The notes under the pieces: model-generated
The model's database searches: none
Seen by the model: only the letters and a program-made list of their open reading frames with translations
Told to the model about the DNA's origin: nothing
Shown here: in pieces, positions 23,391 to 58,802 of the stretch
How the letters are laid out: every line of letters starts with the position of its first letter
Position numbering within the stretch: position 1 is the stretch's first letter
Program-made: the position numbers and the translations under genes
From: Sporolactobacillus laevolacticus DSM 442
GTDB taxonomy: Bacteria > Bacillota > Bacilli > Bacillales > Sporolactobacillaceae
Direction: 5' to 3'
Length of the DNA: 64,000 bases
Assembly: GCF_000497245.1 (NCBI RefSeq)
Contig: NZ_AWTC01000005.1
Coordinates: forward strand, 1,588-65,587

Positions 23391-23505
23391 TTCTTATCCC
23401 TCAGACGTTTTCCCGTCTGCTGGAATTAGCACCTTGTCGCTATTTTTATAGCGACGGTTGCTGAAGCGTCATCGGGCCAGTCCCTCGGCTTCTCTTGATA
23501 AGAAT
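23391..23505 (-). ncRNA. SAM-I (S-box) riboswitch
   Basis: On the minus strand the full S-box consensus is present: TTCTTATC..AGAG at the 5' end, GAGGGACTGGCCC, GATGACGCTTCAGCAACC, AAGGTGCTAATTCCAGCAGA and GGGATAAGAAG closing P1. The P3 arm is a perfect GTCGCTAT/ATAGCGAC hairpin. It regulates the methionine operon by transcription termination. Confidence 0.97.
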
Positions 23506-31218: not shown

Positions 31219-31713
31219 GATTTGTACTCCCTTTATTACATTGTTTTCCATCGCAATTAATTGCCATCGGGCAAGAATCAAACGTATGATGCAGAAAAAG
31301 ATAGAAGGCAAAGCTGAATGGGCCAAACCCACGGTTACCCTCTACTTGAATAGCGGCTTTTTTTACTTTTCCGCAGATTGATTGTATGCTGACAAACTTA
31401 ATCGCGCAAGAACAAAAATCAACAGTTTTATTATTAAATTCGCGTGATTCGCCTTCATTTCCCAGGCAATAATCAGCATGCGACATTATTTTCTTCTATT
31501 TTGTTTCTGTTCAGTCTTTATATTCCTCTCTTTTGTCTGAGGCAGCACAAGGTAACGACGGTTCGAACACACCTGGATGGCCCAAGAATCGCATTTTCGA
31601 AAGGCGCCGCACATATTCAGCCAAGCTCTTTTTCGTCTCCAAACCTTATTCGTCACTTTTCATCTTAAATGGCAGCAATCAATGCGTCAATGTCACCAGC
31701 TGCTCATTCTTTA
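31219..31713. other. Long intergenic region between kimA and trpEG
   Basis: About 500 bp with no trustworthy open frame. Toward kimA there is a fair promoter on the minus strand, TTGCGC (31404-31409) N17 TACAAT (31381-31386). Its leader of about 155 nt includes a GCGG/CCGC hairpin and a palindromic GCAATTAATTGC, but I recognise no known riboswitch. The stretch 31440-31700 shows nothing I can name. Confidence 0.4.
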
Positions 31714-31742
31714 TTGAATTAATCACTGATCCCTTGTATGAT
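31714..31742 (+). promoter_or_regulatory. Sigma-A promoter of trpEG
   Basis: TTGAAT (31714-31719), 17-nt spacer, TATGAT (31737-31742). Transcription would start near 31749, exactly where the NAG array begins. Confidence 0.75.
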
Positions 31743-31747
31743 AGAGG

Positions 31748-31800
31748 AAGTCTAGTTTAGCACAGTTTAGCAGAGCAAAGAAGAGCAGAGTTGAGAAAAG
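31748..31800 (+). promoter_or_regulatory. TRAP (MtrB) binding site: 11 NAG triplets at 5-nt spacing
   Basis: Eleven triplets with exactly two bases between neighbours: AAG, TAG, TAG, CAG, TAG, GAG, AAG, GAG, GAG, GAG, AAG, beginning at 31748 and ending at 31800. Seven are the preferred GAG or UAG. The 11-subunit TRAP ring binds 11 (G/U)AG repeats spaced by 2-3 nt in Bacillus trp leaders, so number and spacing match. The array lies at the very 5' end of the transcript and 106 nt before the trpEG start codon. Downstream, GTGGCTC/GGG-A-CCAC (31816-31833) with TTTGATTT could be a weak terminator. A hairpin CTGTATAA/TTATACAG ends in the AGGAGG. Whether TRAP acts on termination or translation is not clear. 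Confidence 0.85.
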
Positions 31801-31906
31801 AATAATGAATTTATGGTGGCTCATTCGGGACCACTTTGATTTGGCATCTTTTATTCTGAATCAGAATTGCTCTTCTGTATAACAACTTATACAGGAGGTT
31901 GATAAG

Positions 31907-34111
31907 ATGAGTTTCTTATCAAATATAAACACATCCCATGCGTCCGTTCTCTATTCCACCGGCAAAGGCATGAACATCGCCCGAAGCCAGGTTCCCATCC
32001 CCGGCGAATCATCTATTTTGGAACTTCAAAGCAAGCTTGACGAGCACAAAGGAGTGCTGTTCTCCAGTGCGTATCATTTTCCAGGCCGTTATTCCCGTTG
32101 GGATATCGGATTTATTAATCCACCGCTCGAACTCACATCGAAAAAAAATAACTTTCAAATTAAAGCGCTCAACGACCGGGGAGAAGTAGTGATCGCATAT
32201 CTGCTCGATCATTTAACACATCCCGACATTCATCTGAATCATTGCAGTTCTTCTGAATTGACTGGATCCATAAAAACAAGCGATGAAGACTCAATAAAGG
32301 AAGAAAACAGGACAAAACGTCCGTCAATCTTCACGCTGCTCAGAACACTTGAATCACTTTTTCACATTGATGATGAATTTATCGGCCTTTATGGCGCATT
32401 CGGATTCGATCTTGTTCTGCAATTTGAACATTATCCTCTAAATAAAGAACGGGATGCTGACCATAATGATTTACAGCTCTATCTACCTGATGAGCTGCTT
32501 GTTGTCGATCTTGAGAAGAATAAAGCCTTCAAACTTAATTATGAATTTACGTATGGCAAGCTAACCACGGAAGGGCTTCCACATTCCGGAATACGCTATC
32601 CTTATCAGATGCGGGCAGGCTCCGGACGCGCAACGGGCTATGCCGATAAAAAAGGCGATTACGCAGAACTTGTCCGCAAAGCGAAGGACGCTTTTGTCAG
32701 AGGTGATCTGTTTGAGGTCGTTCCAAGCCGTGTCCTGACTCAAAAATGCTCGAGCCGCCCATCTCAGGTCTTTCAGCGCCTGCAAAAAATCAATCCAAGC
32801 CCATATGGGTTTTTGATCCATTTAAACAATGAAGAATTTCTTATCGGTTGTTCCCCGGAGATGTTCGTTCGTGTTGACGGAGCAACTGTTGAAACCTGCC
32901 CGATCTCGGGCACAATCAGAAGGAAAGGTTCGGTAATCGAAGACGCAGAACAAATCAAGACCTTACTCGGATCCGAAAAAGAGGAATCGGAACTGACCAT
33001 GTGCACAGATGTCGACCGTAATGATAAATCAAGAATCTGCGTCCCAGGTTCAGTGGAAGTTGTTGGTAGACGGCAGATCGAAGCCTATTCTCACTTATTC
33101 CATACTGTTGACCATATTAAAGGACAGTTAAAAGAAGGATTCGATGCCATTGATGCCTTTATCAGTCATATGTGGGCGGTGACGATCACCGGTGCACCGA
33201 AGCTTGAGGCGATGAGCTGGATTGAGCGCCATGAAAAGACAGCACGCGGTTGGTATGGCGGCGCCGTCGGCTGGATCGGATTCAATGGCAACATGAATAC
33301 CGGACTGACATTAAGGTGCCTGCGTCTTCAAAACGGTGAAGCTCAGATCCGAGTCGGAGCCACCCTGCTTTACGATTCTGATCCCGAGAACGAGGAACAG
33401 GAAACACTCACAAAAGCCGGAGCGCTGATCGAATCGCTCAATCCTACTCTGGATAAATGCCAGAATTCCTTACATGAGCAGACTGCCGCCCGAGTTGTTT
33501 CGCGTCCTCTCCATCTTTTGTTTGTCGATCATGAGGATTCTTTTGTCCACACCCTTTCCAGTTATTTTCAATCACTAGGTGCAAAAATTACAGTCTTGCG
33601 CAGTCCTGCCGCCCGCAAACTCATCCGCTCAGGCAGCGAACCAATAGATTTGGTCGTCCTTTCTCCTGGTCCCGGACGTCCGGAACGTTTTAAAATGGAT
33701 GAAACCATCCGCCTTTGCTTGGAGCATAGTCTTCCAATATTCGGTATATGTCTTGGTCTGCAAGGAATTGTCAGTTACTTTGGTGGATCGCTTGATATCC
33801 TGCCTGTCCCAGCTCATGGGAAATCATCAATCATCGTCCATGACGGTTGCTCAGCCCTATTCAAAGAAGTTCCACGGCGATTCAAGGCGGGACGCTATCA
33901 TTCAATTTGCGTCGACCGTTTGCCGAATGAGCTGATTGCTACAGCCAAGTCTGAGGATCATGTCATTATGGCCATTGAACACCGAAGCCTTCCGATCACT
34001 GCCGTTCAGTTTCATCCTGAATCAATTATGACGCTGGATGAACAAGTGGGTATGAAGATTTTGGAAAACGTGCTGCAAAGCATCCGTTTGCAGCCGGCAG
34101 GTAACAGATGA
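31907..34111 (+). CDS. trpEG: Fused anthranilate synthase (TrpE-TrpG)
   Basis: Predicted 734-residue fusion. The N-terminal about 515 residues are the chorismate-binding TrpE type (DLFEVVPSRVLTQ, NPSPYGFLIHL, SELTMCTDVDRNDKSR, TITGAPKLEAM, YGGAVGWIGF). PISGT near residue 331 has Ser where aminodeoxychorismate synthases carry Lys (PIKGT), favouring anthranilate synthase. From about residue 535 a class I glutamine amidotransferase follows (LFVDHEDSF, nucleophile Cys in FGICLGLQG, His/Glu in QFHPES). It should make anthranilate for tryptophan. Such fusions are known mainly from alphaproteobacteria and some cyanobacteria, and as phenazine enzymes; Bacillus uses separate subunits. The other trp genes are not nearby. 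AGGAGG precedes the ATG. Confidence 0.9.
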   Translation: MSFLSNINTSHASVLYSTGKGMNIARSQVPIPGESSILELQSKLDEHKGVLFSSAYHFPGRYSRWDIGFINPPLELTSKKNNFQIKALNDRGEVVIAYLLDHLTHPDIHLNHCSSSELTGSIKTSDEDSIKEENRTKRPSIFTLLRTLESLFHIDDEFIGLYGAFGFDLVLQFEHYPLNKERDADHNDLQLYLPDELLVVDLEKNKAFKLNYEFTYGKLTTEGLPHSGIRYPYQMRAGSGRATGYADKKGDYAELVRKAKDAFVRGDLFEVVPSRVLTQKCSSRPSQVFQRLQKINPSPYGFLIHLNNEEFLIGCSPEMFVRVDGATVETCPISGTIRRKGSVIEDAEQIKTLLGSEKEESELTMCTDVDRNDKSRICVPGSVEVVGRRQIEAYSHLFHTVDHIKGQLKEGFDAIDAFISHMWAVTITGAPKLEAMSWIERHEKTARGWYGGAVGWIGFNGNMNTGLTLRCLRLQNGEAQIRVGATLLYDSDPENEEQETLTKAGALIESLNPTLDKCQNSLHEQTAARVVSRPLHLLFVDHEDSFVHTLSSYFQSLGAKITVLRSPAARKLIRSGSEPIDLVVLSPGPGRPERFKMDETIRLCLEHSLPIFGICLGLQGIVSYFGGSLDILPVPAHGKSSIIVHDGCSALFKEVPRRFKAGRYHSICVDRLPNELIATAKSEDHVIMAIEHRSLPITAVQFHPESIMTLDEQVGMKILENVLQSIRLQPAGNR

Positions 34112-48426: not shown

Positions 48427-48625
48427 GTTTAAAAAGTCCGGGAAAAGGTAAGAAGGTTCTTCTGCTAAAATCATGCACGTCCTGTGCATAACGCAGAAGT
48501 CACCGCGTCCTGCGGAAGTTCTGTGTCAGCTTGTTTCTTCACTCCTCACGTATTATTCACATACGCTCCGGTGCTCAAAACTGCGCTTCCTTGATCTTCT
48601 CGGCCCTTTTTGTCCTCCTTTTTGA
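48427..48625 (-). repeat. Dispersed repeat, copy A (between argF and argG)
   Basis: Bounded by GTTTAAAAAG at the left and CTTTTTGAAC at the right, an imperfect terminal inverted repeat. The right two thirds (about 48528-48625) closely match copy B inside the argC T-box: both contain CTCACGTATT, CATACGCTCCGGTGCTC, ACTGCG, TTCCT, GATCT and CTCGGC in the same order. Copy A carries an extra internal segment with hairpins (TGCACGTCCTGTGCA, CCGCGTCCTGCGG). Confidence 0.85.
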
Positions 48626-58341: not shown

Positions 58342-58382
58342 AAAAACGCCCGCCTCTTTTCTTTAGAAAAGAGACGAGCGTT
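58342..58382 (-). terminator. T-box-controlled terminator before argC
   Basis: On the minus strand AACGC..CGTCTCTTTTC pairs with GAAAAGAGGCGGGCGTT (minor mismatches), then TTTTTAATTTTTT. Formed when uncharged tRNA is absent. Confidence 0.9.
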
Positions 58383-58802
58383 GATCACTATGCCCGCGGT
58401 ACCACTCTAGTTATTCCCACAATGAAGGTTCAAAAAGTCTGGGAAAAATCCCTGTCGCATCTCATCGTCAACTTGTTTCTCCGTTCCTCACGTATTCATG
58501 CATACGCTCCGGTGCTCGAAACTGCGTTTCCTCGATCTGCTCGGCTCTTTTTGTCCTTCTTTTTGAACACCGGTTCAAAAAGTTCGATTGAACGTCACTT
58601 CAAAAAGGGAATCTGCTTAAGACTCTATAACGGGAGTTCCCGGACAGTCCTACAATTATTCAGGCTGTCGCCTCCGAAGTGCGGTTCACAGTTTCAACTA
58701 CGCCGGCTCCCATCAACCCGGCTCGCTTGTGCAGCATTCCACTGTTACTCTCTTCTTCATAGACTTTTAATGTTCCTATTACAGTCATTTCTGACTTGTG
58801 TG
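58345..58802 (-). ncRNA. T-box leader of the arginine operon, probably tRNA-Arg specific
   Basis: The invariant T-box AGAGTGGTACCGCGG is at 58394-58408 (minus). Stem I begins GAAGAAGAGAGTAACAG and includes GCGAGCC and the AG bulge region. The specifier loop reads GTGAAC-CGC-ACTTC, so the specifier is most likely CGC (Arg, 58681-58683), fitting the genes; CCG (Pro) is the neighbouring reading and cannot be fully excluded. UGGU in the T-box predicts discriminator A, as in the tRNA-Arg at 357-433. At about 460 nt the leader is long because a dispersed repeat sits between ATTCCC (58607-58612) and GGGAAT (58413-58418), which pair and close that arm. Confidence 0.88.
58428..58568 (-). repeat. Dispersed repeat, copy B (inside the argC T-box leader)
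   Basis: 141 bp bounded by a perfect 10-bp terminal inverted repeat GTTCAAAAAG/CTTTTTGAAC. The body matches copy A at 48427-48625 in the same orientation. Another GTTCAAAAAG follows at 58573-58582 with CTTCAAAAAG at 58599-58607, remains of a further end or partial copy. Confidence 0.85.

Follow-up and report, generated by a model that had tools for sequence, protein, structure and literature searches.

TRAP is a textbook RNA regulator that has been studied mostly in Bacillus subtilis and its close kin. In the window (the whole stretch of DNA analysed here, 64,000 nucleotides of Sporolactobacillus laevolacticus DSM 442), a fused anthranilate synthase gene, trpEG, stands behind a strictly periodic run of NAG triplets, and the question raised by this locus is whether its leader is a TRAP target and, if so, whether transcription or translation would be controlled. 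From the analyses set out below, TRAP control here is probably of a known kind in a new, simpler layout that is common to related bacteria, and the trpEG leader is quite likely to be a TRAP-controlled, mainly translational switch.

The array and its gene

Coordinates of all features are collected in Table 1. The triplets of the array are, in order, AAG, TAG, TAG, CAG, TAG, GAG, AAG, GAG, GAG, GAG and AAG, that is, seven (G/T)AG, three AAG and one CAG; the number of triplets, their exact 2-nt spacing, their position and the presence of four AAG or CAG triplets had been given in a preliminary description of this DNA and were all found as described. A TRAP-regulated leader was defined by 9–11 NAG repeats, mostly with G or U in first position and 2–3 nt apart, upstream of a tryptophan-metabolism target; here there are 11 triplets with 2-nt spacers, 7/11 of them (G/T)AG, and the target is TrpEG. 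The earlier view that chance does not explain the array was upheld by two counts: six NAGs at strict 5-nt steps occur at this array and nowhere else in the 3.59-Mb genome (6 overlapping matches, every one of them inside it; 0 on the opposite strand and 0 with the reversed pattern as control), and the array score of the trpEG upstream region was reached in 0/1000 dinucleotide shuffles.

Table 1. Features of the window, with the basis of each assignment
Feature	Positions	Strand	Basis or remark
Sigma-A-type promoter	31714–31742	+	TTGAAT 31714–31719, 17 nt, TATGAT 31737–31742; consensus match only
Predicted TRAP site, 11 NAG triplets	31748–31800	+	spacers all 2 nt
P1 5′ strand AGAAGAGCA, inside the array	31779–31787	+	predicted partner of the anti-SD without TRAP
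Central hairpin	31815–31835	+	in both predicted folds of the window leader
P1 3′ strand UGCUCUUCU, the anti-SD	31868–31876	+	predicted fold and leader comparison
P2 5′ strand UCUUCUGUAUAA	31871–31882	+	predicted partner of the SD strand with the array held
P2 3′ strand UUAUACAGGAGG	31887–31898	+	includes the Shine-Dalgarno AGGAGG, 31893–31898
trpEG, fused anthranilate synthase	31907–34111	+	734 aa; NF010081 1005.5 bits and TIGR01815 925.3 bits, both above cut-off
SAM riboswitch	23391–23504	−	above Rfam cut-off
Bacillaceae-1 RNA	48449–48516	+	above Rfam cut-off
T-box before an argC-like gene and an apparent arginine operon (by eye)	58367–58769	−	above Rfam cut-off

The predicted TrpEG protein is 75% identical to that of S. 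shoreicorticis. The gene is flanked by a minus-strand gene with weak similarity to permeases and, about 180 nt downstream, by a glycerophosphodiester-phosphodiesterase-like gene, both scoring below family cut-offs; neither of the two neighbouring genes is a trp gene, which bears out the description of trpEG as standing alone. The array begins 5 nt past the −10 box and ends 92 nt before the Shine-Dalgarno (SD) sequence. Promoter-like matches numbered 3 on both strands of 701 bases against 1.7 expected, a weak argument alone, and TATGAT is retained just 5′ of the array in 10/11 genus leaders (by eye). Transcription would thus start near 31749, in agreement with the earlier placement of the array near +1, and the first NAG triplet may or may not be part of the mRNA.

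TRAP and anti-TRAP

The absence of mtrB, the TRAP gene, had been named beforehand as a finding that would speak against TRAP control; one match without stops (127.2 bits) was found in the genome itself, and mtrB is present in 15/15 genus genomes and in 26/26 family genomes (split in G020 into two pieces, one of which contains a stop). It was also found in 14/14 genomes outside the family that have a fused trpEG. Since 18/20 genomes of the same order without fused trpEG have mtrB as well, co-occurrence was discarded as evidence in its own right.

In a numbering of RNA-contact residues that is in part our assumption, the TRAP of this genome keeps Glu36, Lys37, Asp39 and Lys56 (by eye) and has His in place of Arg58. 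Residue 58 is His in 15/15 genus TRAPs; in the rest of the family, which comprises 11 genomes, 7 TRAPs were read and 7/7 have Arg. The lack of Arg58 in the genus weighs against the proposed switch. At residue 33 the genus TRAPs (L001 and the genus mtrB loci) have Phe instead of His. Arg58 has been described as salt-bridged to Glu42 and as contacting the spacer nucleotide U4 in some of the subunits (PMC4854314), and the TRAP of B. halodurans as a 12-mer (PMC3435397). A link between His58 and the many AAG or CAG triplets was considered and found unsupported: triplets other than (G/T)AG make up 43/133 in 11 genus trpEG arrays versus 48/238 in the other 23 leaders, and only 24/116 in the genus trpD arrays.

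Anti-TRAP above cut-off was found in 0/15 genus genomes, in which respect they differ from B. subtilis; weak matches below cut-off in G003, G005, G007 and G014 all lie in open frames of 384–390 aa. In G002 and G003 (L052, L047) mtrB is kept and fused trpEG is missing, and in neither genome was an array found in the mtrB region; trpC is missing in G002, where no PF00218 match was obtained in a search that left out G003 and G010.

Arrays at other trpEG genes and at trpD

Fused trpEG was found in 13/15 genus genomes. In the family, 21/26 genomes had trpEG at E 1e-100 and 20 leaders were read, the partial match of G020 being dropped; in a sample of the class Bacilli, 16/398 genomes had trpEG at E 1e-130, 14 of them outside the family. 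The layout of the window leader recurs in 11/13 genus leaders, with the array in the same place and mostly at 5-nt steps, and the leader of G008 is identical to that of the window; loss of the periodicity in relatives, which had been proposed as a sign against the reading, was thus not seen in these 11. All 14 leaders outside the family carry an array, so that arrays stand at 34/34 fused trpEG leaders read in the class Bacilli, with 6 to 14 scored triplets. A TRAP-type array at a fused trpEG gene, as pointed out in the preliminary description, is therefore not special to this genome. Apart from G001 and G013, considered below, the array score was reached by 5 (G142), 1 (G011) and 1 (G019) of 1000 shuffles and by none in the remaining leaders. 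In G357 and G269 the array spans the SD and the start region. The trpEG gene of G014 (L018) contains one in-frame TGA within the match.

The other trp transcript of the genome lies about 4 kb downstream of mtrB, where trpC (PF00218) is found within an apparent trpDCFBA (other gene names by eye). An array was found upstream of trpD in 13/13 genus genomes with a trpD leader read, and in the own genome five (G/T)AGs at 5-nt steps occur only in the trpD leader (1 match, the reversed-pattern control also giving 1). A hairpin directly precedes the array in the 13 trpD leaders (weakest in G009 and G010; assessed without a shuffle control), and a terminator-like hairpin with U-tract was recognized by pattern in 11/13 (not in G007 and G012). 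Because trpDCFBA lies elsewhere with its own array, hairpin and terminator-like hairpin, the pathway is, as read from the sequence, divided into two array-bearing transcripts, one laid out much as in B. subtilis and the other reduced. A TRAP-gated terminator in trpD was rejected, as masking of the array left its predicted formation unchanged. The trpD SD is predicted to be almost closed in both states (unpaired probability 0.00–0.16 free, 0.00–0.01 masked), which weighs against the switch reading; in 8/13 leaders no more than 5% of permuted arrays attained the free value. The equivalent of helix P1 in trpD is GAAUGAGC:GCUCAUUC in 11/13 leaders versus GAGUGAGU:ACUCACUC in 2/13 (G007 and G012), which amounts to two compensatory changes (by eye) and speaks in favour of the switch.

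These counts bear on the notion that the purine repeat is unrelated to TRAP and is a simple repeat or an SD decoy. Repeats of GAGTT type are also found at non-trp sites in G007 and G010, mtrB is common in genomes lacking fused trpEG, and anti-SD strands pair about equally well with many permuted NAG arrays; against this, all 34 fused trpEG and all 13 trpD leaders have arrays, in genomes with mtrB, and in the own genome the six-NAG pattern is confined to the trpEG leader and the five-(G/T)AG pattern to that of trpD, which leaves a TRAP-independent repeat scarcely credible. As a separate observation, about ten GAGTT units lie downstream of ABC-transporter-like genes in G007 (L146, ~1495–1545; G007:C22:244025-244067) and are not closely followed by a 60-aa frame on that strand.

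Predicted folding of the trpEG leader

The leader was folded with and without the array masked, as the preliminary description had proposed, and two alternative folds were predicted; the predictions are for equilibrium and ignore kinetics. In the free leader AGAAGAGCA is paired with UGCUCUUCU, and when the array is held unpaired UCUUCUGUAUAA pairs with UUAUACAGGAGG, hiding the SD; P1 and P2 share anti-SD nucleotides and are mutually exclusive. The unpaired probability of the window SD falls from 0.51 to 0.07 upon masking. An SD hidden in the bound and exposed in the free state, as in a translational switch of the trpE type, is thus obtained as a prediction, and translational control, mentioned earlier as an option, is the better supported one. 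A hairpin at the SD had likewise been noted; its presence was reproduced, but rather than merely abutting AGGAGG it contains it, within the predicted 12-bp helix P2.

On the preferred reading of a mainly translational switch, tryptophan-loaded TRAP would wrap the NAG triplets at the extreme 5′ end of the trpEG mRNA. In the absence of TRAP, the anti-SD UGCUCUUCU would be paired with AGAAGAGCA of the array, so that AGGAGG would be exposed and TrpEG made; once TRAP occupied the array, the released anti-SD would close the 12-bp hairpin over AGGAGG and translation would stop. The array would thereby double as a Shine-Dalgarno mimic.

In the 11 genus leaders of this layout, 7/9 pairs of P1 are invariant and 96% of its cells are paired, with no covariation in the trpEG P1; in P2 131/131 cells are paired, and the variation seen in 3 pairs is one-sided. 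Both the 12-nt array block AGAAGAGCAGAG, which holds the P1 strand, and the anti-SD CUCUUCUGUAU are invariant in 11/11. Conservation is concentrated on array, anti-SD and SD, and the middle of the leader is variable. The block is invariant although the spacers of known TRAP sites are not conserved (PMC3913778), and this counts in favour of the switch. The pattern of conservation also bears on the idea that the main effect of TRAP at +1 is on promoter escape or 5′-end mRNA decay rather than on SD pairing; the array does begin at the presumed +1, and yet such an action would leave the invariant anti-SD, the SD hairpin and the leaders with an array over the SD unexplained, so that it is regarded as very improbable.

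With the array masked, 10/11 genus leaders show a drop of 0.2 or more in SD unpaired probability, the exception being G012 (0.04 to 0.02 only); with leaders cut at the presumed +1 the fall is at least 0.2 in 9/11, 0.19 in G006 and 0.05 in G012. Free SD values depend on the leader ends (G004: 0.65, or 0.24 when cut at the presumed +1). The SD was more open with the middle of the leader masked than with the array masked in 11/11, but the middle mask, too, reduced access to the SD in certain leaders, such as G004 (0.65 to 0.29) and G014 (0.28 to 0.09). In a permutation test in which the AGs were fixed and the other array letters shuffled (40 permutations per leader), no more than 5% of permutations freed the SD as much as the native array did in 8/11 leaders, the fractions for the others being 0.07, 0.12 and 0.42. 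Raw array:anti-SD duplex energies, for which an over-long arm was used in G004 and G005, were better than those of permuted arrays at 5% in only 3/11 genus leaders and were set aside as not discriminating. For leaders from outside the genus the outcome was mixed: masking reduced SD access by 0.1 or more in 9/19, and the permutation test gave at most 5% in 5/19; the fold test covers leaders other than the four with an array over the SD (G001 and G013 in the genus, G357 and G269).

Transcription as an alternative

A weak terminator downstream of the array had been reported; this was not borne out, as no terminator-like site was found in 31300–32000 (0.5 in shuffles). Because the central hairpin forms in both predicted folds, a TRAP-gated intrinsic terminator is unlikely in the window leader, and this candidate was dropped; a mutually exclusive terminator and antiterminator switched by TRAP, as in the B. 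subtilis attenuator, is absent from the window-leader predictions, and so is a stem-loop of B. subtilis type before the array, the presumed promoter lying directly upstream. In B. subtilis, TRAP still causes termination in the trp leader when the attenuator has been removed (PMC3913778), and control of transcription is therefore conceivable here as well: TRAP bound near +1 might act mainly by bringing about termination in the leader, at the central hairpin or without an attenuator. Several genus leaders do show U-rich sequence after a hairpin (by eye). The central hairpin looks ungated, being predicted in both folds of the window leader and, by eye, of several others; no terminator-like site was found with it in the window leader, and the conserved parts are array, anti-SD and SD rather than the variable middle. 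Action mainly on transcription is accordingly considered unlikely, and the translational switch is retained as the preferred reading.

Leaders with a T-box and an array

In G001 and G013 the trpEG leaders (L020, L021) contain a T-box (Rfam, 122.8 and 110.9 bits), with UGG as specifier in G001 (by eye); its terminator is directly followed by UAGAAGAGUGCAGAUGAGAACAGUAGAGGAG, an array running over the SD. These array scores were reached by 9 and 25/1000 shuffles, the weakest of the 34 leaders. A TrpEG tree was computed from 37 proteins (the 34 and 3 alphaproteobacterial ones; midpoint root for drawing only). The 11 window-type genus genes group together (100/97), and G001 and G013 stand elsewhere beside G309, with weak support (82/89) and flagged as a meeting of long branches. 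Since the tree places them away from the window-type genes, G001 and G013 probably hold a different trpEG lineage. Their leader is a possible two-sensor leader, combining a T-box with a TRAP-type array.

In G010 a T-box-like terminator end (by eye) and a GAG array are followed by a transposase-like frame on the opposite strand (L144, ~1480–1530; G010:C1:2603906-2603933); this site is perhaps a second gene with T-box and TRAP array that was lost to insertion.

Comparison with known systems

The window leader would be a compact translational version of TRAP control, and the 34 trpEG and 13 trpD leaders form a comparative set for what such control needs and what it can spare; it may separate needed parts (array, anti-SD, SD) from dispensable ones (5′ stem-loop, terminator, anti-TRAP). 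For a wider proposal the balance is even: that fused trpEG in Bacilli is a general TRAP target with at least three layouts, namely a terminator-free SD-mimic switch, an array over the SD, and a T-box and array in series in two Sporolactobacillus species in which anti-TRAP was not found, the last reading uncharged tRNA-Trp at transcription and free tryptophan at translation. If this were true, a single cis element would replace the three-part loop of T-box, anti-TRAP and TRAP in B. subtilis, and the leader of these two species would bear on why B. subtilis needs anti-TRAP. In the open-licence literature no paper was found that names TRAP in full together with Sporolactobacillus or Alicyclobacillus, and among the matches listed no title or abstract start dealt with TRAP and a fused trpEG or with a leader combining T-box and TRAP.

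NAG arrays, structures that sequester the ribosome-binding site and arrays lying over it are all known (PMC4347634). The window leader resembles that of B. subtilis trpEDCFBA in its 11 NAG triplets, in TRAP and in a structure change that hides the ribosome-binding site (PMC4347634, PMC3913778). Unlike that leader, it has no stem-loop before the array and no TRAP-gated terminator was found in it; its array starts at about +1 and itself holds the strand competing for the anti-SD, and its target is a lone fused trpEG, with 4/11 triplets AAG or CAG. The predicted translational control by TRAP is shared with B. subtilis trpG and trpP (yhaG) (PMC4347634), whose array over the ribosome-binding site is resembled by the layout in G001, G013, G357 and G269; in contrast to trpG and trpP, the array of the window leader is distant from the SD and would act by RNA pairing and not by covering. 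The T-box of G001 and G013 is like that of Trp T-box leaders including the one of B. subtilis anti-TRAP, and differs from the latter in leading straight into a TRAP-type array that covers the SD of its own gene.
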